Source: Cafeteria roenbergensis
Taxonomy: Eukaryota > Sar > Bigyra > Bicosoecida > Cafeteriaceae
NCBI GenBank assembly: GCA_008330645.1
Contig: VLTN01000084.1
Span: 1 to 64,000, forward strand
Length of the DNA stretch: 64,000 nt
Direction of reading: 5' to 3'
Program-made: the position numbers and the translations under genes
Part shown: piece after piece, positions 6,151-60,412 of the stretch
Position numbering within the stretch: position 1 is the stretch's first letter
How the letters are laid out: each line of letters starts with the position of its first letter
Notes under the pieces: model-generated
Told to the model about the DNA's origin: nothing
Database searches by the model: none
Seen by the model: only the letters and a program-made list of their open reading frames with translations

Positions 6151-6817
6151 ATTGCTCTGGCGAAATCCTTTCTCGGAGAGTGGGGCTGCTTCCCCCATTC
6201 CACTCGACCGAGTTTGCTCTGCAGCGTGCGGATTTTATGGCAGCCAACCGGCGTCATCGCTCGCCAGTCGGTTGCGAAGCACAGCCCCTCCTGCTCGCGG
6301 TGCCGCAAACCTTGCCCCTTGGCGCTGGGCTTCGCCTGCCGAGCTCCTCGGCCCAGGAGCGCTGGCGGGCGCGGCCTGTGACGCGCCGCTCCGCGATTAT
6401 GCATCATCAGCCCGAGCAGACTGTCAAGAACGAAACGCAGAGGGATCAGTCTTGTGCCAAGTCAGGCAGGTGTGTGAGGGCTCGTTCGGACCTCGTTCGG
6501 CTTGTGCGTGGAGGGGGGGAGAGGAAGCCAAGGGCGGTGCCTGTCCCGTTCACCGGGCATGTGAGTGACGATTGTGAACCCCACCCACCCCCCCTCCCGC
6601 TCTCCCTGCGACCCCTTGCGTCCTCTTCCCCGATTTGGCCGTTGATCTCAAGCGTGTGCGGCCGTGGATGTGGGCGAGGGGTCGCTGACTTGGGCGCCGC
6701 TTGCCACGGCCACACTTGTGCCGCGGCGGTCTGTCGCGGCAGAGCCGCACGGCGACGACAACAAATTTGGCGTTCGGGCAAAGAGAGGTCGCCACCGCGC
6801 GCTCTTGTCCTGCAGCA
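6151..6817. other. Divergent promoter region, E2 / SulP transporter
   Basis: About 670 bp between two divergent starts. A pyrimidine-rich tract ending in CCTGCAG directly precedes the transporter ATG and could be the end of a 5'-UTR intron. No further gene recognised. Confidence 0.45.
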
Positions 6818-8869
6818 ATGAGCGACAGGGCGCCTGCTGGTGGTGGGGACGTCGAGCTTACATCCCTCAGTGCGGCGCGAGGAGCCGCCACGCCCGCGGC
6901 CTCGCCCGCTGGAGCTGCCGCTCAGGCCGGCCCGGAGCCCGCGGTTGCTGCCCCGGCGCACGAGACTCTCAGCACGTATGAGCGGGCTCCTACGCTGTCG
7001 GTAATCCGGTCGACGCCGTACTTGTTGTACGAGTTTGCCGCCAAGGGAGCCGCGCTGTACTGGAGCAAGCCGGCGCTGCTGGGCAAGGAACTGCTTGCGG
7101 GGGTGATCGTGGCAATTATGCAGCTTCCCGAATCGGTGGCCTTCTCGTACGTGGCAGGCGTCCCGCCCGCGGTGGGGCTGCAGTCAACTGTGATTCTGGG
7201 CTTCATCACGGGACTCTTGGGTGGCAAGGCTGCGATGATTTCAGGGTGCGCGGGCGCGATGGCCGTCATCGCCAAGGAAATGACCTCCGACACTGGCCCG
7301 CTTGGCCACCTGGACCTGGACAACCGCATTTTGCACCTGTTCACGGCCATGACCGTGTGCGGTGTCATTCAGATCCTTGCCGGCCTTTTGCGTCTGGGAA
7401 ACCTGGCGCGTCTCATCCCCGCCACTGCCATGATCGGCTTCATGAACGGGCTGGCAATCGTCATCTTCATCGCCCAGCTCACCGCCTTCCAGACGTGCGA
7501 TGGGCACGCCCGCTTCTACGACTGCGACGCAAGCGAGAGGAAATGGCTCCAGCCTGACGAGGGGCGCACGTGGGCCACGGTGGGCATCGCGCTCGTGTCC
7601 ACGGCCATCATGTTCACTTGGCCGCTTCTGCCACGCGTTGGGCCGGTGGTACCCGCGCCCCTCGTTGCCATCATCGTCGGCTCGCTGTTCGAGCACTTTA
7701 TCAACAGGCCGTTCATCGGCGCGCCGACTCGGACCATCGACGAGACCGCCCCCATCAGCGGCGGCCTTGCATCTTTCCAAGTGCCGTGGGCCAACCTCGG
7801 CTCTGTCGAGCTCGGGGAGGTGTTCCGCTTCGGCGCCGTGTTCGCGGCCGTGGGGCTCATCGAGTCCGTCATGACCCTGCAGGCGGTGAACGAGCTCACC
7901 GGCACCGTTCCCACCATGTTCGCAGTCTCGCAGGAATGCGTCGCGCAGGGCCTGGGCAACCTCGTCAGCTCCTTCTTCGGGGCTATGGGTGGCGACACCA
8001 TGATCGGGCAGTCCACGATTAACATCAACAGCGGCGCCCGCGGCCGCATCTCTGGAATGACCGCGGCGATCGTCCTCCTCATCATCGTCGTCGTTGCATC
8101 ATCGGTGGTCAACTTGGTCCCCGTCGCAGCCCTCACTGGAGTGCTCTTCGCCATCGTTATCAAGACGTTCAACTGGAACACCTTCAGGGTCCTGTTCCGC
8201 ATTCCCCGCATTGAGGCCCTCACCATCGTCCTCGTCACCGTGCTTGCTGTTCTCATGGACCTCGCCATCGCTGTCTTCGCGGGAGTGGCGCTCACTGCCA
8301 TCGCCTCAAGTTGGAACACGGCACGCCTCGTCGAGGTGGAATCCCGCGACGTGGCCGCGGCCGCGTCCCACGACGGCAAGCCTAGCAAAGTGTACACCGT
8401 CAAGGGCGCGCTGTTCTTTGCCTCCACGCGCGCCCTCGTCGAGGAGTTTGACGTGGAGGGCGACCCAGACCACGTGTACCTAGACCTGCGCGCCTCCATC
8501 ATCAGCGACTTCTCCGCGATCGAGGCCGTCCACGCGGTGGCGCGCAAGTACAAGGAAGCGAAGAAGCACCTCCACGTCACCCGCCTCTGCCCGCGCAGTA
8601 TGCGCCGCCTGGAGCGGCTGCTCGGGGCAGACTCTGAGGTAGCCACGCTGTACGCTGACGGAACAACCAGCGCCGCTGGAGGGCCGCCCTCGCCCGACCC
8701 GGCGACTTCTGCGCGCCGCCTCAGCCAGCTTCACATGTTCGACGTTCCCGACATGGTCACGCAGGCGGACGCCGAGGCGGCGCTGGAGGACGACGAGGAC
8801 ATCGACGTTGTCGACAGGGCCACGGTCTCGGCCCTGCAGGATGAGACCACCGCTGCGGCGAGGGTGTGA
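6818..8869 (+). CDS. SulP/SLC26-family anion transporter with STAS domain (683 aa)
   Basis: Single exon. I start at 6818 (MSDRAPAGG) rather than at an in-frame ATG 117 bp upstream, because the extra residues look like untranslated sequence. Residues 1-70 are Ala/Pro-rich and probably cytosolic. The membrane domain follows, with the SulP signature region (QLPESVAFSYVAGVPPAVGL near residue 100) and the conserved block GGDTMIGQSTININSG near 390. It has a dozen or so hydrophobic segments to about residue 510. A C-terminal STAS domain spans about 520-610, followed by an acidic tail. SulP proteins move sulfate, bicarbonate, chloride or related anions across plasma or organelle membranes. The signature resembles the compact bacterial-type SulP branch, but the gene has the composition of its neighbours. 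Substrate cannot be assigned from sequence. Confidence 0.9.
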   Translation: MSDRAPAGGGDVELTSLSAARGAATPAASPAGAAAQAGPEPAVAAPAHETLSTYERAPTLSVIRSTPYLLYEFAAKGAALYWSKPALLGKELLAGVIVAIMQLPESVAFSYVAGVPPAVGLQSTVILGFITGLLGGKAAMISGCAGAMAVIAKEMTSDTGPLGHLDLDNRILHLFTAMTVCGVIQILAGLLRLGNLARLIPATAMIGFMNGLAIVIFIAQLTAFQTCDGHARFYDCDASERKWLQPDEGRTWATVGIALVSTAIMFTWPLLPRVGPVVPAPLVAIIVGSLFEHFINRPFIGAPTRTIDETAPISGGLASFQVPWANLGSVELGEVFRFGAVFAAVGLIESVMTLQAVNELTGTVPTMFAVSQECVAQGLGNLVSSFFGAMGGDTMIGQSTININSGARGRISGMTAAIVLLIIVVVASSVVNLVPVAALTGVLFAIVIKTFNWNTFRVLFRIPRIEALTIVLVTVLAVLMDLAIAVFAGVALTAIASSWNTARLVEVESRDVAAAASHDGKPSKVYTVKGALFFASTRALVEEFDVEGDPDHVYLDLRASIISDFSAIEAVHAVARKYKEAKKHLHVTRLCPRSMRRLERLLGADSEVATLYADGTTSAAGGPPSPDPATSARRLSQLHMFDVPDMVTQADAEAALEDDEDIDVVDRATVSALQDETTAAARV

Positions 8870-9560
8870 GCGCGCCAGCCGGCCAAGCAGCCCGCGACGC
8901 CGCCGCGGCCACCTGAGGAGCTGAGACCCCGGTGAAACATCCTCGGCGGCGACTTCGGAGAGGCCGGGCGGAGGATGCGGGCCCCGAGTGACACTGAGCC
9001 GCGGGTCCTGCTTGGAGGGGCTGCGGTTGCTTGTGTGAGTGGCGCAGTGGGGCGACTGGGGGCGTGGAGAGCTCCGATCCATGCGTGCGTGCGAGGCCAG
9101 AGTGTCATCGGCACGAAGCCGGGGGAAGGGGCCCCAACGCCCCCGCCCCCGCCTTGTCAGCGAGATCCTGCGTGTAGTGGAGATGCAAACCGAGCCAATG
9201 ACTCGCGACGCACCCGCCAAGCGCGGTGGTCGCGGCCGGCGACAGGACCAAGCAGTCGATTGGCGGCTTCTTTGCGGCAATCGGTGGCTTGTCGACCCGA
9301 ACTCTGCCTTTGCTCTGGATCAAAGTCGCTTGGGGTCTGACGGCGAGCGCACGTCCAGCCCGCAGCCCGAGGGTCGGCCAGCTCTCGCGAGCGCAACCTC
9401 GCTCACGAGCCTGAGCGGGAGTCGGTGTCGCTAGTGTAGTGCGACTGACGGGGGGTGGGTGCATTGGGGGCATCCCTTGGTGGAGACTGGGCATTGTTGC
9501 CTGCGAACGGCCACGCGTTGCGCGCGTGGCGAGGACTCGGTCCGCCGGCCTAAGCCAACC
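8870..9560. other. Intergenic region
   Basis: About 690 bp between the transporter stop and the coiled-coil gene start, both plus strand. No homology-bearing frame seen. It includes the transporter 3' flank and the promoter of the next gene. Confidence 0.5.
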
Positions 9561-12500
9561 ATGGCCGCCATTCGCCCGTCGGATCGAGTCAAGCTGGTCA
9601 CTGGTGTGCGCTTGGGAGTGCTTGACATCTCGCCGGTCGTCGGAGGGGCGTCGATCGCGGATGTGCAAGCGGGCACAAGCGCCATGTCAGTTGCATCCCC
9701 GCGCTCGCTCGAGGCTTGCCTTCGCGAGGGCGTGGAGCTCGAGGAGCTCGAGTTCAGGTGAGCATCGAGACTGGCGCCGAGGGTGCTGGAAGCGGCAGTG
9801 GCTGACTGCCGGGACAAGTGGTGGGCAGCAAAGTCGGCCGGGTGGGGGGGGGGGAGGGGGGGCGAGCAGCCAGGGACGAGTCGCGCGCCCTCCCCGCCAT
9901 ATGCGCCTTCCCCCTGCGCTCTCCTGCGATCCCCGCGGCAGCCACACCATGTTTCGATCCCGCCTTTGGTCTTGCTGTTCTCGAAGCGAGCGCAGGCCCT
10001 TGGAGGCGTTCGCAGCCGCTGGCTTGAGCGCAGAGGAGCAGGAGGAGCTGTTCGAGCAGGCCGAGGAACGGCGCCAACGTGAGCGGCGGCACGCCATGAC
10101 GTTGGGAACCGGCCCAGTCCTCACAGGGTACGGACCCGTTGTTGACCAGGGCAGCTTGAGCGCTGTGCTTTCCCCGGTTGAGCACGTGCTTTGGTCGCGC
10201 GTGCCGTCCACGGAGTCGCGTGCGCGCGCTCGTGGTCGCCCGCCCGAGCCGCGCGGCACTCCCTGTGCGGCTCCTGCTGCATCGCACCAATCAGTGGATT
10301 GCGGAACCGACTCTGCCCGCTGGCGCTCCTCCCGCGCCATCGCCCTTGGTTCGCTCGCAGGCCATCTGGCAGCAGTGGCTGCGCAACGAGCCAGCCTTGA
10401 AGAGGCTGCGGAGGACGACCTCGTCGTGGTACGGCTGGCCGAGCAGCGCCGCCAGTCGGGGGGCAGCTCGGCGGCTGCCAAGGCTGCCGAAGAGGAGGGC
10501 GCTGCAGCGCTGGCAAAGGGCCGCGCCGAGCTGCAAAAGCTACAGGAGCGGCAGCGCGCGGAGCTGGTCCGCATCCTCGAGGCCGAGGTGAAGGCGCAGG
10601 TCGTGCGGGAGCGAATCGAAGCACAAACGATGCGCACGGAGCAGCGGATCGCCGAGGCGCAGCGAGAGACGGAGCGGCGCCGCGAGGAGGCGCTCGAGAG
10701 GGAGCGCGCCCGGCAGGCGGCCAAGCGGGCGGAGGAGGAGGCGGCCGAGGCTAGAGGCGCCGCCCTCGCGCTGCAGGAGCGCCGCAAGCAGGAGGAAATT
10801 GCCCGGAAAGCGCTTGGCGAGGAGCGGCGCCGCCGGCGAGAGGCCGCAAAGCGTCACCGCGAGAAGCTGGCCAAGCAGGAGGAGTTCCGCCGGCAGACCG
10901 AGGCCCTGGCCGAGGCGCAGCGGCTCGCGGCTGAGGAGCGCAACGCGCGCGCGGCGGAGCGAGAGGCCGAGCTCGAGGCCCGCCGCCAGGCCCGGCTCGA
11001 GCAGGAGCGGGCGGAGGCGGCGCGGCAGCGGGAGCTTGCCGAAGAGCGAATTCGGGCGGCGCAGGCGGCGGCGGAGGCGGCAGCTCGCCGCAAGGAGCAG
11101 GAGCGGGCGCGACGGGAGGCCGAGGCGGAGGAGCGGCAGCGGGCCTGGAAGGAGCAGCAGGCGGCAGAGCTGGAGGCGCGAGCGAAGGAGGCTGCCGAGA
11201 GACAGGAGGCCACGCGAGCCAAGCTGGAGCAGCTCAAGCAGGAGCGCGAGCAGCGCGCCGCCGACCTGCTGGCGAAGGAGGAGGCCAAGGCGGCGGCGCT
11301 TGAGGAGTTCCTCGCGGCGAAGCGCGAGGAGCATGAGGCCAAGTTTGCCGGCGGGGGCGAGGCGGAGGAGCGGAGGAGGCGCGCGCTGCAGGCTGCCAAG
11401 GACGCCGAGGAGGCGCGTGCGGCGGAGCAGCGCGAGGCCATGCGGCTGGCGGCGGAGAAGGCTGCCAAGGCCCGGGAGCAGGCGCAGCTGGCGCTGGCAG
11501 GGCGCTCCGCCGCCGCCGCCGAGGCGGACAGGGCCAGGGCCGACGCGCTGCTGCGGAAGGCGCGCGCGCAGGGGTTTGCCAAGCTCCGCACGCTGATGCA
11601 GGTGGAGGAGGCGGCTGCCAGAGGCCGGGCCGTGGCAGAGGCGCAGGAGCGCGTGCGCCAGGAGCGCCTGGCCGCCATCGAGGCGGCCCGCCAGCAGAAG
11701 CTGCGCCTCTCCGAGGAGTTCGAAGCCGTTCGGTCTTCGGGCAGGTCGGACCGGCTCGAAGCCTTCGTGAAGAAGCTTGGAGTCGATCCCGAGGAGGTGA
11801 AGCGGCAGGCGCGGTCCACCTCGTCGGCGGCTACGCTGCCGCTCGCTGCCACGGCGCCTGGCCGCTCGCGCGCTCGCGCACCCGGCTCCCCAGGCGGCGC
11901 ACCGGGCGCGGTCGGCCGCCCCTCCGGCTCGGCGTCGTCCCCCGTGTCCAGACGCGGTCGGCGCTCGGCGCGAACCGCCGCCCGCGCGGCCACCGCCAGC
12001 CAGTCGCCGCTTGCGCGCGCGCCGCCGTCGGGGCTCTCTGCGACCAGCGCGAGGGCCACCGCGTCGCTCCCGTCACTCTCTGCCGCGTCCCGTGGCTCAG
12101 GCCCCTCCGCAAAGCAGCGCGCCGCCCCTGCCAGCAGAGGCAGCGCCGCAGCCGCGCGCGCTCTCGCGGCCAGCACCGCAGACGGCGACAGCGCGTCTCT
12201 CTCCCAGGGCCAGGCTTCCCCCTCGGCTGTGGCAGAGCCAGCGTCGAGCTCCCCGCTCGCCACGGCAGCCCTCCCCGCCCTCGGCCCGGCATCCCCTGCC
12301 TCGCCGCAGTCCGTCGCGTCCTCTGCAGCCGAGAGCAGCGCTGGCGCCAGGCCCTCGCCGAGCGCTGGCGCCAGGCCCTCGCCGAGCGCTGGCGCCAGGC
12401 CCGCTTCCGGCGTCGGCAGCGGGCCGGATTCCGGCCGCGCGTCCGCGAGGTCGTCGCTGCCCCGCCTTGCGTCCGACCCCGCCATCGCCGCCGGGGTGAG

Positions 12501-45557: not shown

Positions 45558-48500
45558 ATGCCTCGCTCCGCCTCCAAGAAGCGCAAGCCCACCGGCTCCG
45601 ACGGAGGCAATGGTGCTTGGCAGGCCTGGTCCTCTGACAAGTCGCAGCAGCGCACGGCGGCGGAGCACCTCGCGGCGAAACGTCGGCTTGCAGCCGTCGG
45701 CCGCGCGAAGCGCGAGCGAGAGGAGGCCGAACGGCGCCACCGCGAGCTCCGGCGCGAGCTAGACCGCAAGTACGCAGCAGAAGCCAAGCGAGAAGCCCGC
45801 ATCCGGCGGCTCTTCGAGCGCAGCGCCTCGCGGCCACGGCATGCCAGGTCCCGGACAGCAAGCCCGGCAAACTTGGGCGCCGTGTCCGTGTCCACGACCG
45901 AGTCGGCCGCCAACCGGGAAAGCGCACCTTCTGGCGGTGGCTCACCCTCTGGCGCTCGCCGCTCTCCGGCCAAGCGCCGCAAGCGGGGCGGCAGGTCCGC
46001 GACTGCGCTCCGCCGCAAGCGAATTGACCGCCTGATGGAGTCGCCCCTGAACCAAGGCCTGCGCGACGAGTACTCCACAGCGGTCGCAATGGAGTCTCAG
46101 GCGCATTGGCAGACCACCGTGCCGCCGCGGGCGTCCGGGCCGGCCGGCCAGTTCAGCGCCCCTGCGCTGCCCGTGATTCGCCGCACTGCTGCCCCGGGCG
46201 CACGCCCATCCGACGCCGAGGGCAAGTGGGACGACGACCACCGACTCGGATACACTGCCCCTGTCGGCTCTGGGGCGCATGCTGGGGGGCACCCGCGCGG
46301 GCGTGCTGGCCCCGTGGAGGCCTGGCCATTCAGCGGGCCCGACGCCGACGACGACGGTGCCACCCCCGACGCGGCAGCAGTGGGAGGCACGGCCCGCGCG
46401 CGAGTGCCGCACAGCGCCACTTCAGCGGACGAGGAGCCCCTCCGCCGCACGCTGAGCAAGCACGCCGCCTCGGAGACCGCCCTCCCCCGCCGCTCCGGCA
46501 GGCAGGGCGCCGCTCTGGACGACTGGGGGGCGGACGCCGCTCTCGCTGCGACCATTGCGTCACTCCCACGGAACAAGGCCGGCCACCACGTCCTCATGGA
46601 TCCCCGGCGGGTCGTCAAGCCCACCCCAGGCGAGGCCCGCCGGGCGCGACGCCGGCAGCGGGACGGGCTCGCGGCCGTGGACGCGCAGGCCGCCGGTCAC
46701 CCCGAATCCCCGCCGCTCTTCACGCCTGTGTGGACGGGGGACCTTCCTGCCCTGCGCAGGGCCAAGGCTGCTGCTGCGCGAGACCGCGAGCTGCGGCTGG
46801 CCGAAGCGCAGGCCAGGCGCCACGCAGTGCAGGAGGCGCGGCTCAGAGCCGAGCTGGAGGAGCGATTGCGCGTCTCTCAAGAGCGCGAGGAGCGCCTCAG
46901 GAGGAGGGAGGCAGGGCTTCGAGCCCAGCTGGCCGCCGTTGCAGACTCGCGACGCAAGCCAACGTCCCGTGGCGCCAATGCCGCGAGCCCCCAGCTGTCA
47001 GGCTCCAGCGGCACGGAACTGAGTCCCGGCATCGGCCCCAGGAACCAGCACGACGCTCGCACGCGCGGTGGGGCCCTGGAGGCGGGTCCGCGCGGCGAGT
47101 CGCCCGTCAGTGACGGCGGGGGCCTGCCGCCACACTCCGGGGTCGGCCCTGAGGCATCGGTGCGCTCAACTGCTGCCGTGGCGCCCATCTCTGGCTGGGA
47201 CGCCACGCGCACAGTCTCTGGCCCCAGTGGAGTTGTGCCGCTGGGCGCATTGAACGGGTCGATGTCTGTTGCCAGTGGCAGGCGCGGCAGCGTGGCCAGC
47301 TCCCGGCACCGCGTGAGACGGGATGCCCGACCCCTTTCCTCCGCCAGCTCATCTCGCAGCGGGTCTGTTATCCCCACACGGTCCGGAAGCCGTGCGAGCA
47401 GCAGGTGTTCCAGCCCGCAGCTGCAGGATCCTGAGCCACAAACAGCACGCGATTCCGGTTTCGCTGACCAGCACGTCAGGGCCTCGGACCAGGACAGGCA
47501 AGAGTCGCAGCCCGATGGTCAGCCGAGGCCCGGCTCCATTGCAACGCCAACACCTTCGTCTGGGCCAAAGCCTGCGTCGGCTTCGGGCAGCGCGGCCGGG
47601 TCCAAGGCGGGCTCCGTGGCGGGCGATGCTGGTGCGTCGGAGGAGGCCGATGCTGCGGCTGAGGATGTGGCCGGGTCCAAGGCAGGCTCAGTGCAGGGCA
47701 GCGCGGCCGGGTCCAAGGCGGGCTCCGTGGCGGGCGACGCTGGTGCGACGGAGGAGGCCGATGCTGCGGCTGAGGATGTGGCCGGGTCGAAGGCGGGCTC
47801 AGTGCAGGGCAGCGCGGCCGGGTCCAAGGCGGGCTCCGTGGCGGGCGATGCTGGTGCGACGGAGGAGGCCGATGCTGCGGCTGAGGATGTGGCCGGGTCC
47901 AAGGCGGCCTCAGTGCAGGGCAGCGCGGCCGGGTCCAAGGCGGGCTCCGTGGCGGGCGACGCTGGTGCGACGGAGGAGGCCGATGCTGCGGCTGAGGATG
48001 TGGCCGGGTCCAAGGCGGGCTCAGTGCAGGGCAGCGCGGCCGGGTCCAAGGCGGGCTCAGTGCAGGGCAGCGCGGCCGGGTCCAAGGCGGGCTCAGTGCA
48101 GGGCAGCGCGGCCGGGTCCAAGGCGGCCTCAGTGCAGGGCAGCGCGGCCGGGTCCAAGGCGGGCTCCGTGGCGGGCGATGCTGGTGCGACGGAGGAGGCC
48201 GATGCTGCGGCTGAGGACGTGGCCGGGTCCAAGGCGGGCTCAGTGCAGGGCAGCGCGGCCGGGTCCAAGGCGGGCTCAGTGCAGGGCAGCGCGGCTGGGT
48301 CCAAGGCGGGCTCCGTGGCGGGCAGCGCGGCCGGGTCCAAGGCGGGCTCCGTGGCGGGCGATGCTGGTACGACGGAGGAGGCCGATGCTGCGGCTGAGGA
48401 CGTGGCCGGGTCGAAGGCGGGCTCAGTGCAGGGCAGCGCGGCCGGGTCCAAGGCGGGCTCCGTGGCGGGCGATGCTGGTGCGACGGAGGAGGCCGATGCT

Positions 48501-51500
48501 GCGGCTGAGGACGTGGCCGGGTCCAAGGCAGGCTCAGTGCAGGGCAGCGCGGCCGGGTCCAAGGCGGGCTCAGTGCAGGGCAGCGCGGCCGGGTCCAAGG
48601 CGGGCTCCGTGGCGGGCGATGCTGGTGCGTCGGAGGAGGCCGTTGCTGCGGCTGAGGATGTGGCCGGGTCCAAGGCAGGCTCAGTGCAGGGCAGCGCGGC
48701 CGGGTCCAAGGCGGGCTCCGTGGCGGGCGATGCTGGTGCGTCGGAGGAGGCCGTTGCTGCGGCTGAGGATGTGGCCGGGTCCAAGGCAGGCTCAGTGCAG
48801 GGCAGCGCGGCCGGGTCCAAGGCGGGCTCCGTGGCGGGCGATGCTGGTGCGACGGAGGAGGCCGATGCTGCGGCTGAGGACGTGGCCGGGTCGAAGGCGG
48901 GCTCAGTGCAGGGCAGCGCGGCCGGGTCCAAGGCGGCCTCAGTGCAGGGCAGCGCGGCCGGGTCCAAGGCGGGCTCCGTGGCGGGCGATGCTGGTACGAC
49001 AGAGGAGGCCGATGCTGCGGCTGAGGACGTGGCCGGGTCCAAGGCGGGCTCAGTGCAGGGCAGCGCGGCCGGGTCCAAGGCGGGCTCCGTGGCGGGCGAT
49101 GCTGGTGCGACGGAGGAGGCCGATGCTGCGGCTGAGGACGTGGCCGGGTCCAAGGCGGGCTCAGTGCAGGGCAGCGCGGCCGGGTCCAAGGCGGGCTCAG
49201 TGCAGGGCAGCGCGGCCGGGTCCAAGGCGGGCTCCGTGGCGGGCGATGCTGGTGCGACGGAGGAGGCCGATGCTGCGGCTGAGGACGTGGCCAGGTCCAA
49301 GGCAGGCTCAGTGCAGGGCAGCGCGGCCGGGTCCAAGGCGGGCTCAGTGCAGGGCAGCGCGGCCGGGTCCAAGGCGGGCTCCGTGGCGGGCGATGCTGGT
49401 ACGACGGAGGAGGCCGATGCTGCGGCTGAGGACGTGGCCGGGTCCAAGGCAGGCTCAGTGCAGGGCAGCGCGGCCGGGTCCAAGGCGGGCTCCGTGGCGG
49501 GCGATGCTGGTACGACGGAGGAGGCCGATGCTGCGGCTGAGGACGTGGCCGGGTCCAAGGCAGGCTCAGTGCAGGGCAGCGCGGCCGGGTCCAAGGCGGG
49601 CTCAGTGCAGGGCAGCGCGGCCGGGTCCAAGGCGGGCTCCGTGGCGGGCGATGCTGGTGCGACGGAGGAGGCCGATGCTGTGGCTGAGGACGTGGCCGGG
49701 TCCAAGGCGGGCTCAGTGCAGGGCAGCGCGGCCGGGTCCAAGGCGGGCTCCGTGGCGGGCGATGCTGGTGCGACGGAGGAGGCCGATGCTGCGGCTGAGG
49801 ATGTGGCCGGGTCCAAGGCGGCCTCAGTGCAGGGCAGCGCGGCCGGGTCCAAGGCGGGCTCCGTGGCGGGCGACGCTGGTGCGACGGAGGAGGCCGATGC
49901 TGCGGCTGAGGATGTGGCCGGGTCGAAGGCGGGCTCAGTGCAGGGCAGCGCGGCCGGGTCCAAGGCGGGCTCCGTGGCGGGCGATGCTGGTGCGACGGAG
50001 GAGGCCGATGCTGCGGCTGAGGATGTGGCCGGGTCCAAGGCGGCCTCAGTGCAGGGCAGCGCGGCCGGGTCCAAGGCGGGCTCCGTGGCGGGCGACGCTG
50101 GTGCGACGGAGGAGGCCGATGCTGCGGCTGAGGATGTGGCCGGGTCCAAGGCGGGCTCAGTGCAGGTCAGCGCGGCCGGGTCCAAGGCGGGCTCAGTGCA
50201 GGGCAGCGCGGCCGGGTCCAAGGCGGGCTCAGTGCAGGGCAGCGCGGCCGGGTCCAAGGCGGCCTCAGTGCAGGGCAGCGCGGCCGGGTCCAAGGCGGGC
50301 TCCGTGGCGGGCGATGCTGGTGCGACGGAGGAGGCCGATGCTGCGGCTGAGGACGTGGCCGGGTCCAAGGCGGGCTCAGTGCAGGGCAGCGCGGCCGGGT
50401 CCAAGGCGGGCTCAGTGCAGGGCAGCGCGGCCGGGTCCAAGGCGGGCTCCGTGGCGGGCGATGCTGGTGCGACGGAGGAGGCCGATGCTGCGGCTGAGGA
50501 CGTGGCCGGGTCCAAGGCGGGCTCAGTGCAGGGCAGCGCGGCCGGGTCCAAGGCGGGCTCCGTGGCGGGCGATGCTGGTGCGACGGAGGAGGCCGATGCT
50601 GCGGCTGAGGACGTGGCCGGGTCCAAGGCGGGCTCAGTGCAGGGCAGCGCGGCCGGGTCCAAGGCGGGCTCCGTGGCGGGCGACGCTGGTGCGACGGAGG
50701 AGGCCGATGCTGCGGCTGAGGACGTGGCCGGGTCCAAGGCAGGCTCAGTGCAGGGCAGCGCGGCCGGGTCCAAGGCGGGCTCAGTGCAGAGCAGCGCGGC
50801 CGGGTCCAAGGCGGGCTCCGTGGCGGGCGACGCTGGTGCGACTGAAGAGGCCGATGCTGCGGCTGAGGATGTGGCCAGGTCCAAGGCGGCCTCAGTGCAG
50901 GGCAGCGCGGCCGGGTCCAAGGCGGGCTCCGTGGCGGGCGATGCTGGTGCGACGGAGCAGGCCGATGCTGCGGCTGAGGACGTGGCCGGGTCCAAGGCGG
51001 CCTCAGTGCAGGGCAGCGCGGCCGGGTCCAAGGCGGGCTCCGTGGCGGGCGATGCTGGTGCGTCGGAGGAGGCCGTTGCTGCGGCTGAGGATGTGGCCGG
51101 GTCGAAGGCGGGCTCAGTGCAGGGCAGCGCGGCCGGGTCCAAGGCGGGCTCCGTGGCGGGCGATGCTGGTGCGACGGAGGAGGCCGATGCTGCGGCTGAG
51201 GACGTGGCCAGGTCCAAGGCAGGCTCAGTGCAGGGCAGCGCGGCCGGGTCCAAGGCGGGCTCAGTGCAGGGCAGTGCGGCCGGGTCCAAGGCGGGCTCAG
51301 TGCAGGGCAGCGCGTCCGGGTCCAAGGCGGGCTCAGTGCAGGGCAGCGCGGCCGGGTCCAAGGCGGGCTCCGTGGCGGGCGATGCTGGTGCGACGGAGCA
51401 GGCCGATTCGGGTGCCAGTGAGCTTGCTTCGGCCATCAAGGACGCTTCTTCACAGCAGACCTCTGCCGTTTCGGATGGCAAGCGCGACATCGGGCGTGTT

Positions 51501-54500
51501 AGCCCAAGGTCCATTGTCTCGCATGCCTCGCAAGGGTCGATTCACCATCCACCGCCTCCGCCACGGGGTGCAAGCAGGCCTCCAAGCGCTCGCCCCGCGC
51601 GCCCAGCTGGCATGCCCCCAGCATCATCCGCCAACCGGGTGTCTCCGCTCGACCAGTCCGTGGCTTTGAGCTCCTTCTTCAGCCGTGTTGTGCTCGCTGA
51701 CGAGCCTCGCGAGGTCGCGAACCAGGAAGGGCCAGTTCGTGCGAACAAGGCTTGGACTCGGTATGGTGAGGGCGTATGGGACCAGCTTGAGGCTCGCTAT
51801 CCTGGCCAGACGGCTGCGTTCCGCCCTGTCCAGCGATCCTCTGCTGCTGCGGAGCACGACCCGGGTTCCATCGCTGGACCAGAAGCATCCATTCCCGTGG
51901 ATCGGAGTGATCAACCTGCTAGGAGCCAAGGTCAGGTTGAGGAGGAGCGAGAGAGGCCCGTCAGCCAGCAAGAAGCCTCGCCAGCGTTGGCCGCAGAATC
52001 CCAGCCTCCTATCGATCCGCCAGCTACCGTTAGCCAAGAGGCGGAGGACTCGGCTGATGCTGCCTGCGACGATGCCGGTGTGGCGAGCTCTCCCGGCGCC
52101 GCAGCCGTGGAGGAGGCACCCGGCGCCGCAGCCGTGGAGGAGGCACCCGGCGCCGCAGCCGTGGAGGAGGCACCCGGCGCCGCAGCCGTGGAAGAGGCAC
52201 CCGGCGCCACAGCCGTGGAGGAGGCACCCGGCGTCGCAGCCGTGGAGGCGGCACCCGGCGCTGCAGCCGCGGAGGAGGCACCCGGCCAGCAAGAGGCTGC
52301 GGCGCCCGAGCCAGCCGTGGAGGGTGCGCAGCCGGTCACGGTGTCGCAGCACATCGAGGGTCTCGGTCGGTTCTTCGCGGACGTGGTGCTCGCCAGCAAG
52401 CCTCGCGAGGAGGCGGTCGCGGAGGGTCCGGTGCGCGCGAACAAGGCGTGGGCGCGGTACGGCGAGGGGGTGTGGGATCAGCTGGAGTCCCGGTTCGCGG
52501 GCGAGACGGCAGGGTATCGGCCGATGCCGCGGGCGGAGGAGGTCCGCCAGGCAGCCCCCGGCCCGGCAGCGGAGGAGGGCGATGCCGGTGTGGCAAGCCC
52601 TCCCGGCGCCGCAGCCGCGGAGGAGGCTCCCGACCAGCAAGAGGCTGCGGCGCCCGAGCCAGCCGCGGAGGGTGCGCAGCCGGTCACGGTGTCGCAGCAC
52701 ATCGAGGGTCTCGGTCGGTTCTTCGCGGACGTGGTGCTCGCTAGCAAGCCTCGCGAGGAGGCGGTCGCGGAGGGTCCGGTGCGCGCGAACAAGGCGTGGG
52801 CGCGGTACGGCGAGGGGGTGTGGGATCAGCTGGAGTCCCGGTTCGCGGGCGAGACGGCAGGGTATCGGCCGATGCCGCGGGCGGAGGAGGTCCCCCAGGC
52901 AGCCCCCGGCCCGGCAGCGGAGGAGGGCGATGCCGGTGTGGCGAGCCCTTCCGGCGCCGCAGCCGCGGAGGAGGCGCCCGGCCAGCAAGAGGCTGCGGCG
53001 CCCGAGCCAGCCGTGGAGGGTGCGCAGCCGGTCACGGTGTCGCAGCACATCGAGGGTCTCGGTCGGTTCTTCGCGGACGTGGTGCTCGCTAGCAAGCCTC
53101 GCGAGGAGGCGGTCGCGGAGGGTCCGGTGCGCGCGAACAAGGCGTGGGCGCGGTACGGCGAGGGGGTGTGGGATCAGCTGGAGTCCCGGTTCGCGGGCGA
53201 GACGGCGGGGTATCGGCCGATGCCGCGGGCGGAGGAGGTCCCCCAGGCAGCCCCCGGCCCGGCAGCGGAGGAGGGCGATGCCGGTGTGGCGAGCCCTTCC
53301 GGCGCCGCAGCCGCGGAGGAGGCGCCCGGCCAGCAAGAGGCTGCGGCGCCCGAGCCAGCCGCGGAGGGTGCGCAGCCGGTCACGGTGTCGCAGCACATCG
53401 AGGGTCTCGGTCGGTTCTTCGCGGACGTGGTGCTCGCTAGCAAGCCTCGCGAGGAGGCGGTCGCGGAGGGTCCGGTGCGCGCGAACAAGGCGTGGGCGCG
53501 GTACGGCGAGGGGGTGTGGGATCAGCTGGAGTCCCGGTTCGCGGGCGAGACGGCGGGGTATCGGCCGATGCCGCGGGCGGAGGAGGTCCCCCAGGCAGCC
53601 CCCGGCCCGGCAGCGGAGGAGGGCGATGCCGGTGTGGCGAGCCCTTCCGGCGCCGCAGCCGAGGAGGAGGCACCCGGCCAGCAAGAGGCTGCGGCGCCCG
53701 AGCCAGCCGTGGAGGGTGCGCAGCCGGTCACGGTGTCGCAGCACATCGAGGGTCTCGGTCGGTTCTTCGCGGACGTGGTGCTCGCTAGCAAGCCTCGCGA
53801 GGAGGCGGTCGCGGAGGGTCCGGTGCGCGCGAACAAGGCGTGGGCGCGGTACGGCGAGGGGGTGTGGGATCAGCTGGAGTCCCGGTTCGCGGGCGAGACG
53901 GCGGGGTATCGGCCGATGCCGCGGGCCGAGGAGCCTAACCCAGTGACTATTGAAATCCACGAGTCAAGTTCTCAAGCTCCAGCTGCCGATTCAGTCGCGT
54001 CGCCCCAGTCTGTGGCGTCTGCCGGGGGCGCGGACGCAACTACGCCGATGATGAAGTCGCCTGGGTCCAGCCTTCGGATCGAGGCTGAAGCGTCTAAAAT
54101 AGGCGAGGACGGACCTGCAAAGGACTCGGCCAGCCGCCAATCGCCTTCGCCGCAACCCAAGCCCGTTGCTCTGAGGGTGCCAGCATCGCCAAGTACGCAC
54201 GTGGACGCCCTGGCTCGCTTCTTCGCTGACGTCGTGCTGGAGGATTCTGTGCCGGAGGTCGCCTCTGCGGAGGGCAAACTGCGCGCCCAGAAGGCATGGG
54301 ATCGCTTCGGAGCGAAGGTGTGGGATCAGCTGGCCGCCCGTTTCCCGGGACGCACTGAGCCATATCGGCCATCGACAACCCCTGTTCCTTCCCTGCGTGT
54401 GGGAAAGTCTACCGACAGAGCCACACCGCTTGCTGAGCAGGCCGCGCATGAGCGCAGCCTTGCCTCGTTCTTCGAGCGCGAAGTCTTGGGCTCCGACGGG

Positions 54501-55139
54501 TCTGACCCGGACATTGCGGCAGAGGCAAGGCGCAGGGCAACCTTGGCATTGACCAAGTACGGCCTGAGCATTTGGGGGTCGCTGGAGCGCAAGCTCCCCG
54601 GAAAAGCGAGGCCGTATCGCGACCAGGCGGAGGCGGCCATTGCAGCCGCCAAGCACCCGACAGCTGGCGCCACGCCCCAAGCGGCTCTGGGGCCTAAGCC
54701 GGGCAGCTCTGCATCGGTGCCTGGGGCCGGGCTTCCGCCGGCCGAGCGACTCGCCGCTGCCCAGCTCCACCTTCGCGACGTTGTCGATGCAGAGGCGCGT
54801 CGACAGGGGGACCCATCGCCGTTCAGGCGACTGGCCGAGCTGAAGCAGCCGGCTCGTCATGTGCTGCTCACGCTCGGGGGCATCTGCGTGTGTCTGGGCC
54901 ACTCGACACGCTGGGGCGCAGCCCAGGAGCTTCTCAAGCGCCCTGACACAGTCTCGCGCACTCTGGCTGTGTCAGCCAAAGCCATCGCGGCGGACGACGC
55001 CAAGAGGGATCTGCTGAACCGCATTTCCAACGGGGGCGAGCTGGTTTCCTCAGTGTTTGCCGGCACGGCGGACGAAATGGTTCGCGCCGTGGCCTCGTGG
55101 CTGACTGCTCTCACGGAGGCTGCCAACGCCATTGCGTAG
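45558..55139 (+). CDS. Giant repeat protein with eight copies of an unrecognised domain and a dynein-MTBD-like C-terminus (3193 aa)
   Basis: One continuous frame. Residues 1-90 are basic and helical, about 390-470 are coiled coil, and the rest to 675 is disordered. Residues about 676-1950 are a tandem array of two units (25 and 12 residues, both beginning GSKAGSV). Residues about 2030-3030 hold eight copies of a domain of about 60 residues with consensus FF..VVL..., EG.(V/L)RA.KAW.RYG..VWDQLE.R(F/Y)PG.T..(Y/F)RP. Copies 2-6 sit in near-identical 348-bp repeats; copies 1, 7 and 8 are diverged. A PGAAAVEEA linker repeat precedes copy 2. The C-terminal 130 residues (from about 3062) have helices and spaced Pro/Trp residues (LKQPARHVLLTLGGICV, then RWGAAQELL, later VASWLTAL), recalling the dynein stalk microtubule-binding domain. 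I infer a large microtubule-associated or cytoskeletal scaffold; no known family was recognised. Confidence 0.7.
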   Translation: MPRSASKKRKPTGSDGGNGAWQAWSSDKSQQRTAAEHLAAKRRLAAVGRAKREREEAERRHRELRRELDRKYAAEAKREARIRRLFERSASRPRHARSRTASPANLGAVSVSTTESAANRESAPSGGGSPSGARRSPAKRRKRGGRSATALRRKRIDRLMESPLNQGLRDEYSTAVAMESQAHWQTTVPPRASGPAGQFSAPALPVIRRTAAPGARPSDAEGKWDDDHRLGYTAPVGSGAHAGGHPRGRAGPVEAWPFSGPDADDDGATPDAAAVGGTARARVPHSATSADEEPLRRTLSKHAASETALPRRSGRQGAALDDWGADAALAATIASLPRNKAGHHVLMDPRRVVKPTPGEARRARRRQRDGLAAVDAQAAGHPESPPLFTPVWTGDLPALRRAKAAAARDRELRLAEAQARRHAVQEARLRAELEERLRVSQEREERLRRREAGLRAQLAAVADSRRKPTSRGANAASPQLSGSSGTELSPGIGPRNQHDARTRGGALEAGPRGESPVSDGGGLPPHSGVGPEASVRSTAAVAPISGWDATRTVSGPSGVVPLGALNGSMSVASGRRGSVASSRHRVRRDARPLSSASSSRSGSVIPTRSGSRASSRCSSPQLQDPEPQTARDSGFADQHVRASDQDRQESQPDGQPRPGSIATPTPSSGPKPASASGSAAGSKAGSVAGDAGASEEADAAAEDVAGSKAGSVQGSAAGSKAGSVAGDAGATEEADAAAEDVAGSKAGSVQGSAAGSKAGSVAGDAGATEEADAAAEDVAGSKAASVQGSAAGSKAGSVAGDAGATEEADAAAEDVAGSKAGSVQGSAAGSKAGSVQGSAAGSKAGSVQGSAAGSKAASVQGSAAGSKAGSVAGDAGATEEADAAAEDVAGSKAGSVQGSAAGSKAGSVQGSAAGSKAGSVAGSAAGSKAGSVAGDAGTTEEADAAAEDVAGSKAGSVQGSAAGSKAGSVAGDAGATEEADAAAEDVAGSKAGSVQGSAAGSKAGSVQGSAAGSKAGSVAGDAGASEEAVAAAEDVAGSKAGSVQGSAAGSKAGSVAGDAGASEEAVAAAEDVAGSKAGSVQGSAAGSKAGSVAGDAGATEEADAAAEDVAGSKAGSVQGSAAGSKAASVQGSAAGSKAGSVAGDAGTTEEADAAAEDVAGSKAGSVQGSAAGSKAGSVAGDAGATEEADAAAEDVAGSKAGSVQGSAAGSKAGSVQGSAAGSKAGSVAGDAGATEEADAAAEDVARSKAGSVQGSAAGSKAGSVQGSAAGSKAGSVAGDAGTTEEADAAAEDVAGSKAGSVQGSAAGSKAGSVAGDAGTTEEADAAAEDVAGSKAGSVQGSAAGSKAGSVQGSAAGSKAGSVAGDAGATEEADAVAEDVAGSKAGSVQGSAAGSKAGSVAGDAGATEEADAAAEDVAGSKAASVQGSAAGSKAGSVAGDAGATEEADAAAEDVAGSKAGSVQGSAAGSKAGSVAGDAGATEEADAAAEDVAGSKAASVQGSAAGSKAGSVAGDAGATEEADAAAEDVAGSKAGSVQVSAAGSKAGSVQGSAAGSKAGSVQGSAAGSKAASVQGSAAGSKAGSVAGDAGATEEADAAAEDVAGSKAGSVQGSAAGSKAGSVQGSAAGSKAGSVAGDAGATEEADAAAEDVAGSKAGSVQGSAAGSKAGSVAGDAGATEEADAAAEDVAGSKAGSVQGSAAGSKAGSVAGDAGATEEADAAAEDVAGSKAGSVQGSAAGSKAGSVQSSAAGSKAGSVAGDAGATEEADAAAEDVARSKAASVQGSAAGSKAGSVAGDAGATEQADAAAEDVAGSKAASVQGSAAGSKAGSVAGDAGASEEAVAAAEDVAGSKAGSVQGSAAGSKAGSVAGDAGATEEADAAAEDVARSKAGSVQGSAAGSKAGSVQGSAAGSKAGSVQGSASGSKAGSVQGSAAGSKAGSVAGDAGATEQADSGASELASAIKDASSQQTSAVSDGKRDIGRVSPRSIVSHASQGSIHHPPPPPRGASRPPSARPARPAGMPPASSANRVSPLDQSVALSSFFSRVVLADEPREVANQEGPVRANKAWTRYGEGVWDQLEARYPGQTAAFRPVQRSSAAAEHDPGSIAGPEASIPVDRSDQPARSQGQVEEERERPVSQQEASPALAAESQPPIDPPATVSQEAEDSADAACDDAGVASSPGAAAVEEAPGAAAVEEAPGAAAVEEAPGAAAVEEAPGATAVEEAPGVAAVEAAPGAAAAEEAPGQQEAAAPEPAVEGAQPVTVSQHIEGLGRFFADVVLASKPREEAVAEGPVRANKAWARYGEGVWDQLESRFAGETAGYRPMPRAEEVRQAAPGPAAEEGDAGVASPPGAAAAEEAPDQQEAAAPEPAAEGAQPVTVSQHIEGLGRFFADVVLASKPREEAVAEGPVRANKAWARYGEGVWDQLESRFAGETAGYRPMPRAEEVPQAAPGPAAEEGDAGVASPSGAAAAEEAPGQQEAAAPEPAVEGAQPVTVSQHIEGLGRFFADVVLASKPREEAVAEGPVRANKAWARYGEGVWDQLESRFAGETAGYRPMPRAEEVPQAAPGPAAEEGDAGVASPSGAAAAEEAPGQQEAAAPEPAAEGAQPVTVSQHIEGLGRFFADVVLASKPREEAVAEGPVRANKAWARYGEGVWDQLESRFAGETAGYRPMPRAEEVPQAAPGPAAEEGDAGVASPSGAAAEEEAPGQQEAAAPEPAVEGAQPVTVSQHIEGLGRFFADVVLASKPREEAVAEGPVRANKAWARYGEGVWDQLESRFAGETAGYRPMPRAEEPNPVTIEIHESSSQAPAADSVASPQSVASAGGADATTPMMKSPGSSLRIEAEASKIGEDGPAKDSASRQSPSPQPKPVALRVPASPSTHVDALARFFADVVLEDSVPEVASAEGKLRAQKAWDRFGAKVWDQLAARFPGRTEPYRPSTTPVPSLRVGKSTDRATPLAEQAAHERSLASFFEREVLGSDGSDPDIAAEARRRATLALTKYGLSIWGSLERKLPGKARPYRDQAEAAIAAAKHPTAGATPQAALGPKPGSSASVPGAGLPPAERLAAAQLHLRDVVDAEARRQGDPSPFRRLAELKQPARHVLLTLGGICVCLGHSTRWGAAQELLKRPDTVSRTLAVSAKAIAADDAKRDLLNRISNGGELVSSVFAGTADEMVRAVASWLTALTEAANAIA
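47583..51405 (+). repeat. Two-unit coding minisatellite (75 bp and 36 bp)
   Basis: About 3.8 kb made almost only of a 75-bp unit (GSKAGSVAGDAG + ATEEADAAAEDVA) and a 36-bp unit (GSKAGSVQGSAA). The long unit is always followed by one to four short units. Both units share their first 21 bp. Variation is limited to a few positions (Gly/Ala in SKAGS/SKAAS, ATEE/ASEE/TTEE, ADAA/AVAA, VAG/VAR). All indels keep the frame. Confidence 0.95.
52088..52280 (+). repeat. 27-bp coding repeat (PGAAAVEEA)
   Basis: About seven imperfect copies of a 27-bp unit encoding PGAAAVEEA, forming the linker before the second copy of the unrecognised domain. Confidence 0.85.
52281..53935 (+). repeat. Five near-identical 348-bp repeats
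   Basis: The block starting at the codons for VTVSQHIEGLGRFF recurs at 52336, 52684, 53032, 53380 and 53728, exactly 348 bp apart (116 codons). Each unit carries one copy of the unrecognised domain plus an Ala/Glu/Pro linker. Units differ at only a handful of bases, pointing to recent expansion or gene conversion. Confidence 0.95.
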
Positions 55140-55661: not shown

Positions 55662-57809
55662 TCAGTCGTCGCGAGGCCGGGGGTGGCCGCGGCGCGCTGC
55701 TGCGCCGTCGAGGCGGGGAGAGTCTCCGCTGATGGGCGTGCCCGCACCCACCATCAGTCCGGACGCGTCGGCGATGGAGGCACGGCTGGCCATGGCAGCT
55801 GCAGGGAGGCTGAGGCCGGTGACCGACTCTCCGTCCACGCGGCCGGGGCCGTCGAGGAGCGGCGTCGTGGGCGTGCCGAGGAGCGATGGCGAGCTGATGA
55901 GGAGGCCTCCGTCCTTGGCGCTTGCGGCAGCGGCGGCGTCCTCGGCGGCAGCCCTGTCCTTGAGCTGACGAATCATCGCCTCTGGGAGGTTCAGGATGGG
56001 GAGCCTCGCCCTTGCGTTGACGATGAGGAGGACGATGCCAGACACGATTCCGCACCCCGCGAAAGCCGCAAAGGTGAGGCTGACACACTCAAAGTCCTCG
56101 GGGCAGATGACCTGCATGCGGCTGATGACGAGGGGCACGACGGCGAGGCCAAGGTTTTGCGCAGCGGTGGTGAGGCCGTACGCCGTTCCGACGATCTCCT
56201 CGTCGACCACCAACGCGATGGAGGGCCAGAGGGCGGCCGCGTAAAAGGAGTAGGCGAGCCCCATGAAGACGAGGCCCACCAGCGGCGTGATGGAGGAGAG
56301 GCCGAGCAGGAGGTGGACGCCGGTGATGACGAGGGCGGAGGCCAGGCAGAACACTGCGCGCATGCCGATGCAGTCGATGAAGGCTCCGAGGAAGGGCGAG
56401 ACGAGGCCGGCGGTGGTGTAGGTGACGGCCATGTAATAGTTTGCGGTGCCGGCGGTGATGGTGGGCCAGCGAGTCACGATGAAGTCGGAGGCGATGTTGT
56501 TGAAGGGCAGGATCGCGCAGTAGGTGGTCACGCAGGAGATGGTGAGGATCCAGAGGGAGAGGGGGAGGCGCAGCACGGCGCGGAGGTCCACCTGCTCGTC
56601 GTCGCCGGCGCCGTCGTCGTCCTCGACTGCTGCCACTGCAGCCAGCTCGGTGGGGTTGACGCCGTCGGTGGCGGCGTACGTCGGAGCGGCAGAGCCGAGG
56701 AGCGCGCCCGCCTCGGCCTGGTCGCCCCCCGTGAGCATGAGGCGCGAGGCGCACCCAGGGTCGTCCTCGGGCGTCGCCGCGGCCTCGTCGGCGGCGCGCT
56801 TGCCCTCTGCCAGGGTCCGGCGCGCGGTGCGGCGGTTATCCTTGAGCACGACGGAGGCGCGCCGGTCGATGATGAGAACGGCGATGGCGCAGGCGAAGCT
56901 CGCCAGGCAGATGAGCGCCCCGGACCAGAGGGAGAAGGCCAGGCTGGTGCCCTCGGCGATGGCAGGCGAAGCGGCGTCGTTGAACACGGAGCCGAGGCGG
57001 GCAAGCGCGAGGTTCAGCCCCAGCGCCAGCGCCAGCTCCTTGCCGCCGAACCACTTGGCGATGAGGCCAGACATGGTCACGCTGAGGGACTCGCCACCCA
57101 GGCCGAAGATCACGCGGCCCGTGATCATGACTGCCCATTTCGTGTGGGTGCCCGGCAGGGTCATGCCCAGCGCGAACACGCACTGCCCGATTGTGACGAG
57201 GAACGCAAAGATGGCGTTGCCCAGCCGCAGCCCCATGCGGTCAGAAAAAATGCCGCCCAGCAGCGGGAGGATCACGTTGGGCCACGAATAGGCGCTGTAC
57301 AGCCACGAAAAGAGGTTCTGGTACTCCTGGTAGGAGATGCGCTCCTCAACGGGAAGCACCGGCCCGGGCGGGGAGGCGCCGGGCTTGAGGTACCCCGTGA
57401 AGTAGTATTGCATCTGCGACGGGAACAGGGCCAGCGCGGGGCATGCTGGCTTCGAGCGTATTGCAGCGATGGGGGCAAGGCTCGCCGCGGGACCGCCGCA
57501 GTTGCCTGGTTGAAGAGCGCACTCACCCGAAGGTTCAGCGCCGCCGGCTCATCATACACAAAGTAGCTGCGGCAAGGCAGTCAGCAAAATGACACGCACA
57601 GGGCAGCGGGCAGGCGCGTGAACGGGCGCGAGCCCGGCGCCGCGCGCTGCGCGAGACAAGCTGGCACAGGCGTTGGCGAGAAAGCTGGGCGACTGGTTTT
57701 TGCGGCGAGGAGCTCACGAACCGACCAGCCCGATGCACAGGAGCGCAAGCACCAGCCACCGGATGAGAAGCTCGGGCCTCCGCAGAGGGAGGGCGGCGGG
57801 CTTGCCCAT
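55662..57809 (-). CDS. MFSD1-like major facilitator transporter (3 exons, 627 aa)
   Basis: Exons on the minus strand: 57809-57718, 57566-57527 and 57413-55662 (donors GTGAGC and GTGAGT, acceptors GCAG, phases 2 and 0). The 40-bp middle exon completes a conserved block, GLVGSYFVYDEPAALNLR, which recalls GNYFCYDNPAAL after span 1 of MFSD1. Exon 3 carries YSWPNVILPLLGGIFSDRMGLR (motif A-like loop), GRVIFGLGGESLSV and WFGGKELALALGL, all MFSD1 hallmarks. A central cytosolic loop of about 100 residues is acidic. The second six-span half follows and ends near residue 535. The C-terminal tail of about 90 residues is disordered. MFSD1 exports dipeptides from lysosomes with GLMP as partner; the same role here is inference. 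Divergent from the CSA-like gene with only 149 bp between starts. Confidence 0.87.
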
Positions 57810-57958: not shown

Positions 57959-60412
57959 ATGGCGGTGGCCAGCGGGCTCCTTGCTCGGGAGACGGGAGAC
58001 CTGCGCGCTTCATCGTGAGTCGGCAGGGCAAGCGCGTCGGCAAGTTGCCCCCTCTCCTCCTACTCCGGCCGCTCACACACCCGCCCCCGCACAGGGCTGG
58101 CGCGACCTGCTCAGGCGCTCGCATGCGGCAGCCGCATGTGTGACGGAGCCACCCTGCAGGGCCGTCCACAATGTTGCTTTGGCTGCAGAGTCTGTCGCCG
58201 ATTCGCCGGAGCCAGGACTCAGGCGCTCGCGCGCGGCAACGCGTCCCCAGTGGTGAGAGCGAGGCAGGGGCGGACAGTGATGGCGGTTCCTGCCCCCGGG
58301 GAGGCACGTGTGCAGGAGGTCAGACTGCAGCGAGCATCGCGCCTGGTTCTGAAGCTGTGCGCAGGTGCTTGACCGCCTCTCGAGCGGCATCACATCGCTA
58401 GAGTTCGATTCGGTGCAGCAGCGATTGTGAGCCAGCGCCGCGTGCGCGTTGGCATTGGCCAGCCAGCGCCCGGCCGCGCCCCGCTGCGGCTGCCGCCGCC
58501 AGTGAGAGGCCGCCCACGTCGGCGCGCGACGCCTCGTCTGGTGTGTGCGACGACGCCCCAAACCCGCCCCACACACAACCGCCCCCGTCTCTGTTCGCCA
58601 TTGCTACGCGCCTCTCGCTTGCGATGTCGGGTGTATGGCTGCAGCCTGCTGGCTACGACCGGCCGCGGGGAGCTGGCGCTGTACGACGTGGAGGCCGGGG
58701 CTTCGACGCGCGAGCGGCTCGCCGCTGGAGGCGGCACGCAGGCGCGCAGGCAGGCGCGCGAGCGCGACGTGGAGGTGCTGGGGCTGCGAGGAGGGCAGCT
58801 GCCAGCGGCCAGGGGGGCCCTGCGGCGGCGAGCGGCCGCGCGAGAGGAGGAGCGCGGGGCGATGGAGGAGGCGGAGCGGAGGCTGGACTCCGCTGGCCGG
58901 GGCGGGGGGCACGCCGGTGCGACGGTGCCCCGGGATGCGTGGGCAGCTGCGCCGACTGCGTGGCGCCGCGACGAGGACCGAGCGGTTGCGGAGCGGCGGC
59001 GGCTCAAGGCGATGGCCCGTGCAACGGCGCCCTGGGCGGGGCACGAGGGCAGCGGCCGCCTGCGGTCAGCAGGCCAGGCCCCAGCCGTCCTCTGCGCGGC
59101 GTGGTACGGCGTCGACTCTGGTCTCGTCGTGACTGGCTCGGCCGACGGCAACATTCTCGCGTGGGACGTGGCGGCTGGGCTGACGCTGGGCGGCAGTCTG
59201 GGCGTCGCAGTGGCGTCAGCATGGGCGCCTGGGCCCGCGGAGCAGCCTGCGGTGTTCAGCCTGTCCATGCACGCGCCGCACAGCGCGGGGCCGCTGCGTG
59301 CAAGCGTTGCCATGGGGCGCGCCGAGCGGGCGGTGCGGCTGCTCGACCTGCGGAGTGGCGCGGCCACGCACTCGCTGGACGGGCACAGCGGGGACGTGCT
59401 GGCAACGGCCTGGCACCCGCAGCGAGAGCACGAGCTTGCGAGCGGGTCAGCGGACGGGGGGGTGCTCGTTTGGGACGTGCGGCTGGGCGGGACGAGAGCC
59501 TGCTTGGCGCAGATGGACCTGCTGACGCGGCGGCCCACGCTCGGCGGAGGCGGGGGCGGTGGCGGGGGCGCGTTTGGGGCGCCAGGTCAGCCCGGGGTTT
59601 CGAAGCGGGCTCACAGTGGTCCGGTCACTGCGGTTTCCTGGGGCCTCGCCGACGGGGCCGGCGTGTTTTTGCTTTCCGCCGGCGGCGACAGCTGCGTGAG
59701 GCGCTGGCGCGCTGAGGCGGGTTGGATCGAGGGCGGCAGCTTTGAGGGGCTCGACAACGGGCTGCAGCGTGGGACGCGGCTGGCCGTGGTCCCCACGGCG
59801 TCGGGCGCTTCCGGTTCCGGAGCCTGCGTGTTGCACGGCTGCACGGCCGGTGACATTCGCGCCAGGACCGGCCGCGGCCTGGCCGACCTTGTTGGGGGCT
59901 CGGCCGCCGACGCAGGGGCGGCTCACGGGGCCAGCGGCGGTGTTGTGTGCTGGGACGAGTCGACCGGAGCGCGCCTGGGCAGGCTGGAAGGCGCGCATGT
60001 CGGTGGCGTTACGGCGCTTGCGGCGAGGGGCGGCGGCGGCCGAGAGCTGGTTTCTGGCGGCGAGGATGGCGCGGTCGTGATGTGGCGGCCGGGCTTTTTG
60101 TTGGCGGGGCGCGGGCCCGCGCCCTGGGAAGCGGGGGCGGCGGCAGCGGTCCCGGTGCGCGCTGCTTCCCAACGGCACGGCAGCTCCGGCCGCCCTGGCA
60201 TTCCGCCCTCGCAAAATCCCGCTCCCGCTGCGGTGCGCGGCGCCGAGGAACCAAGGCCTGGCCACCCCCGCGAGCCGATGGCGAGTGAACATCCTCTGGA
60301 GGACGACTGGGAGGGGATGCCGCAGGGCGCTTCCGTGCAAGACGCAGCTGACGCCGCGGCAGCCGCCATCGCGAGCGCGCGCCAGAGGCGACTGGGCCAT
60401 CGGCGCGGCTGA
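57959..60412 (+). CDS. ERCC8: CSA/ERCC8-like WD40 protein (multi-exon, N-terminus partly unresolved)
   Basis: The main exon 58645-60412 is certain. Upstream, exon 58365-58426 encodes VLDRLSSGITSLEFDSVQQR and joins in phase 2 (donor GTGAGC, acceptor GCTGCAG) to give QQRFLLATTGRGELALYDVEAG. This aligns with the first WD block of human CSA ([21 protein letters not shown]...VLYDLE). A probable first exon 57959-58014 encodes MAVASGLLARETGDL, like MLGFLSARQTGLEDP. The piece linking these two exons is unresolved. Diagnostic CSA features include VRLLDLRSGAATHSLDGHSGDVLATAWHP, LASGSADGGVLVWDVR and a final ELVSGGEDGAVVMW. A charged insertion of about 110 residues splits the first two blades. CSA is the DDB1-CUL4 substrate receptor in transcription-coupled repair. 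The 70-residue tail is disordered. Confidence 0.78.

Follow-up and report, generated by a model that had tools for sequence, protein, structure and literature searches.

Host frame and repeat copies

The window analyzed here is a stretch of 64,000 nucleotides from the bicosoecid Cafeteria roenbergensis (positions 1 to 64,000 of contig VLTN01000084.1; GC content, 72.4%), and our subject is one reading frame within it, the host frame (45558..55139, forward strand), which encodes 3193 residues, begins with an ATG immediately 3' of an in-frame stop, and is open throughout. The encoded protein consists, in order, of a basic N-terminus with two Arg/Glu-rich stretches, acidic repeats, eight likely helical hairpins on acidic linkers, and a dynein-like tail.

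A sequence-only reading of this DNA had described the hairpin region as eight copies of one domain, and the copies proved real: a profile built from them recovered all eight at domain expectation (E) values of 1.8e-33 to 2.2e-45. All profile matches lie on the forward strand, with an old copy 1 (51630..51857) followed by a young array of copies 2 (52326..52550), 3 (52674..52898), 4 (53022..53246), 5 (53370..53594), and 6 (53718..53942), an old copy 7 (54174..54398), and the old and most divergent copy 8 (54423..54653), which carries one inserted residue. Because this profile was derived from the copies themselves, leaving copies out was the fair test, and against profiles of the remaining copies, copies 1, 2, 7, and 8 scored 96.8, 95.0, 87.9, and 36.2 bits, respectively (near-identical sister copies were also removed when copy 2 was left out), while the best of 2000 shuffles per copy reached 10.1, 9.8, 15.4, and 8.3 bits. 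Copies 2 to 6 form one recent tandem array with a 348-base-pair (bp) unit (4.8 units, 98% matches) in which the domain protein sequence is identical and the linkers are 50 residues long and rich in Ala, Glu, and Pro; therefore, there are four independent sequences rather than eight. Among these four, 14 of 66 aligned columns were invariant (the inserted residue of copy 8 being omitted), compared with a mean of 0.04 and a maximum of 1 in 5000 shuffled trials. The aromatic and glycine positions previously named as common to all copies held for the FF pair, the second Trp, and two Gly. Copy 8 has Leu in place of the first Trp and YRD in the PG.T..YRP motif, copy 7 has Phe instead of the Tyr that precedes Gly, and copy 1 has Phe at the Tyr of YRP. 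The sole candidate for a ninth copy elsewhere in the host frame (within 46791-46862) scored -1.2 bits, and the tail was rejected as a ninth hairpin because 260 of the 1658 listed shuffles (2000 made) scored as high or higher.

An AlphaFold2 model of copy 7 contained two helices (its residues 6-21 and 27-56) with a mean predicted local distance difference test score (pLDDT) of 81.4 and a predicted template-modelling score (pTM) of 0.64. The repeat is thus likely a folded unit, although the compact fold that had been anticipated came out as a simple two-helix hairpin; a fold search with this model against solved structures gave a best E of 4.2. Modest statistics suggest that the copies are under constraint. 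Among the five young copies, 2 of 198 domain bases were variable with no residue change, versus 7 of 150 bases in the four linkers, 5 of which change a residue (Fisher p = 0.043 for variable bases in domain versus linker). Nei-Gojobori ratios of nonsynonymous to synonymous change (dN/dS) were 0.24 for copies 1 and 2, 0.38 for 2 and 7, 0.59 for 7 and 8, and 0.70 for 2 and 8, values that are rough because the synonymous distance exceeds 1 in each of these pairs and is saturated in pairs 1-7 and 1-8. Selection on a fold rather than mere duplication, as first suggested, is therefore plausible but falls short of proof, and five of the eight copies are plain recent duplications.

Searches for relatives of the repeat gave no significant match outside the host gene. 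In Pfam-A, no family reached its cut-off over 51600-53000 (best score, 12.1 bits; cut-off, 25), and none was listed for 53940-55136 at E up to 10. The repeat profile found two matches among PDB sequences at E up to 10, neither of them significant (best E, 0.9). Within the organism's own genome (36,303,456 bases in 167 contigs, with only the best candidates scored), copy 7 retrieved only the eight copies at E up to 0.001, and copies 8 and 1, searched at E up to 10, retrieved the eight plus three and one further places, respectively (E, 0.41 to 2.4). A peptide pattern fit 84 stretches in viral contigs and 43 in prokaryotic ones, and tblastn at E 1e-3 identified no relative among them. The repeat is confined to the host gene across Pfam-A, PDB, the own genome, and these contigs, and the earlier statement that it belongs to no described family holds for these collections; a new family is not established, and categorical novelty cannot be claimed because the eukaryotic proteins searched were those of Pfam-A, PDB, and the own genome. 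One apparent relative was discarded: a place in a CLU-domain frame (E = 0.436) was first taken for the CLU N-terminal segment, but the aligned stretch proved to be a different, low-complexity one. The N-terminal helices of the CLU domain (PF13236) do resemble the repeat by eye (an F..VL helix, a long helix, and LP..R.FRP), a likeness without statistical support, as 358 of 1887 listed shuffles (2000 made) scored as high as that segment or higher.

A dynein-like tail without a motor

By sequence comparison, the C-terminal domain (54816..55121, forward strand) resembles the microtubule-binding domain (MTBD) of dynein, without stalk or AAA+ ring. Of 135 residues tested, those from 29 to 130 align with the MTBD of the dynein stalk/MTBD family (PF12777, MT) and share the core P..V.L.L..IC..LG..W..A..LL. 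Searched against 177,635 distinct PDB sequences at E up to 10, the tail gave three matches (best E, 0.15), each of them a short construct of the cytoplasmic dynein 1 heavy chain. In a six-frame search of the own genome, three candidates were scored. Besides the tail, these were the MTBD of a dynein-like frame on C9 (E = 0.008) and a C63 frame (E = 0.0125); the C9 frame carries a dynein MTBD between stalk-like helices (PF12777 match, E = 1.1e-41). A profile that included non-motor relatives, some of them found through the tail itself, scored the tail at 23.1 bits, a value reached by none of 3000 shuffles (best, 8.8 bits).

Other observations weigh against this homology or point in no clear direction. 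Pfam PF12777 does not report the tail, which is absent from the 20 places that the model matches in the genome, and with a profile of dynein MTBDs alone the tail match was not significant. The dynein MTBD is a six-helix fold, and the single-sequence structure model of the tail has seven helices at a pLDDT of 58.2; fold searches with this model placed no dynein among the best 50 of 285 rows or the best 50 of 997 aligned chains, a result that says little because the pLDDT was only 58. Conserved prolines delimit the dynein MTBD according to one report (PMC6629372). By our own reading of the alignment, the first of the two is present in the tail (KQPARHV) and the second is absent, the chain stopping 5 residues beyond the aligned part. 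On balance, and with uneven support from these comparisons, the C-terminal ~100 residues probably represent a motor-free homologue of the dynein MTBD and may bind microtubules.

The host frame differs from a dynein heavy chain in that no AAA+ ring and no second stalk helix were detected, in that it ends directly after the last helix, and in that the tail shares one chain with hairpin repeats and low-complexity arrays. Pfam reported no AAA+ ring, linker, or stalk in 45558-47590, where nothing at all matched at E up to 0.1, or in 51600-53000 and 53940-55136 (up to E 10); the stretches between these parts were judged by reading to be low complexity and young copies.

The genome contains 19 dynein-heavy-chain-like frames, of which the 18 besides that on C9 were so called because PF12777 matched from positions 1-5 to 310-344 in open frames of at least 4299 residues. 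At least four non-dynein frames also carry MTBD-like domains: the host frame (on C84) and one each on C63, C7, and C75. The C63 frame (L051:2450-8356; 1969 residues) has eight IQ stretches followed by three MTBD-like domains that scored 52, 65, and 56 bits with a profile containing those very domains; an independent dynein profile also finds C63, and Pfam reported no motor domain in it at E up to 0.1. The C7 frame (L052:2768-8296; 1843 residues) has one MTBD head matching PF12777 positions 101-206 at 27.4 bits against a cut-off of 24, and the C75 frame (2436 residues, of which L077 minus strand, 3689-9898, is a part) has one divergent MTBD-like domain (19.4 and 17.9 bits). The latter was the single match among seven weak places checked with MTBD profiles, the other six giving none at E up to 1. 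Like the host frame, these three are large and mostly low complexity, with an MTBD-like domain and no motor domain reported (Pfam scan of C63 and C7), but none shows the hairpin repeat, for which the best domain score stayed under 0 bits in all three (the comparison covered 2070 of C75's 2436 residues). By eye, the C7 frame also shows an alpha/beta-hydrolase-like stretch not reported by Pfam and a long EPAGDA repeat at its end, and the C75 frame shows a PH-domain-like stretch near its end.

Remainder of the frame and its surroundings

The N-terminal 676 residues of the host protein carry a net charge of +45 and include, by eye, an Arg/Glu-rich stretch resembling a coiled coil or single helix (45678..45821, forward strand) and a second coiled-coil-like stretch rich in Arg, Glu, Ala, and Leu (46743..46958, forward strand). 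An acidic low-complexity array of GSKAGSVQGSAA / GDAGATEEADAAAEDVA units lies at 47585..51388 (forward strand); its Ala/Gly/Ser repeats span ~1270 residues between the basic N-terminus and the hairpins and are probably disordered. The linker between copies 1 and 2 contains a 27-bp tandem repeat (52092..52286, forward strand), and tandem arrays of many periods occur within the gene, among them 12, 27, 111, 258, and 348 bp. Two other-frame open reading frames (ORFs) overlap the low-complexity array (47323-51669, forward strand, 1448 residues; 47519-51514, reverse strand, 1331 residues); these are probably by-products rather than genes, their length probably arising because the repeat periods are divisible by three and the DNA is GC rich.

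In Pfam scans that covered 2 and 9 window frames in addition to the repeat region, matches were to WD40, RCC1, PP2C, sulfate permease, and major facilitator superfamily (MFS) models; with the 19 dynein-like frames of the genome, these matches indicate a flagellated eukaryote. The neighboring frames at 55662-57413 (reverse strand) and 58427-60412 (forward strand) matched an MFS transporter and WD40 repeats, respectively, and offer no functional hint.

Possible roles of the repeats and tail

The explanation that we favor, at about an even chance of being correct, is that a small helical-hairpin domain has been multiplied within a large, mostly low-complexity, non-motor protein whose tail is probably homologous to the dynein MTBD, yielding a multivalent, largely disordered, microtubule-anchored scaffold. 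The tail would bind microtubules and serve as the anchor, a role suggested by the probable domain-level homology, and the Arg/Glu-rich N-terminus might join chains or add a second contact. Judging from the architecture, the hairpins, strung along flexible acidic linkers, could offer repeated docking sites for one partner, in which case hairpin copy number would tune avidity, and unequal exchange of the 348-bp unit would alter that number. A cytoskeletal or flagellar location would fit such a protein.

Other explanations address the hairpins themselves. They may instead be self-association modules, pairs of which would form four-helix bundles and build a filament or matrix whose length or stiffness depends on copy number. 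Hairpins of two helices that carry invariant aromatic residues commonly bury their core only against a partner, and the model, at a pTM of 0.64, is a hairpin only; the 50-residue Ala/Glu/Pro-rich linkers between copies 2 and 6, on the other hand, disfavor an ordered filament, and we consider this arrangement unlikely. Slightly better placed, although still improbable in our estimate, is the proposal that a described eukaryotic family includes the repeat as a diverged member but went unseen in the collections searched. The eukaryotic coverage stated above leaves room for it, and profiles can miss members, as the Pfam stalk model missed the C63 frame that our in-house dynein profile found; against it, no Pfam match came near its cut-off, and PDB held no clear match by sequence or by fold. 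We give least credence to the view that a recombinogenic, GC-rich locus produced the repeat region as a by-product with little function, repeats growing by slippage and unequal exchange and persisting because a disordered region tolerates them. The gene is indeed filled with tandem arrays of differing period, and the predominance of recent duplicates among the copies is what such a process would leave, but the 14 invariant columns among the four distinct copies, the absence of residue changes in the young copies' domain compared with five in their linkers, and the prediction of helices at a pLDDT of 81 all speak against it.

We propose, tentatively and with somewhat less assurance than for the scaffold itself, that the dynein tip became detached from the motor and now serves as an independent module in four or more large proteins that differ in make-up (one containing IQ motifs, another the hairpin repeats, and two more), the host protein adding a domain family of its own, and that these proteins make up a class of motor-free microtubule linkers derived from dynein. 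The titles and abstract openings listed from one open-licence library yielded no paper on a non-motor protein with a dynein MTBD, which is weak evidence of absence. This motor-free use of the dynein MTBD is more surprising than the unmatched repeat. If the repeat is lineage restricted, the host gene would present a clean example of how a young folded domain multiplies within a single gene, old copies standing next to new ones. Should the tail bind microtubules, the dynein tip would prove able to function independently of motor and stalk, and to do so in several architectures of the same genome, opening a direct test of how the tip grips the microtubule without the ATPase that controls it.
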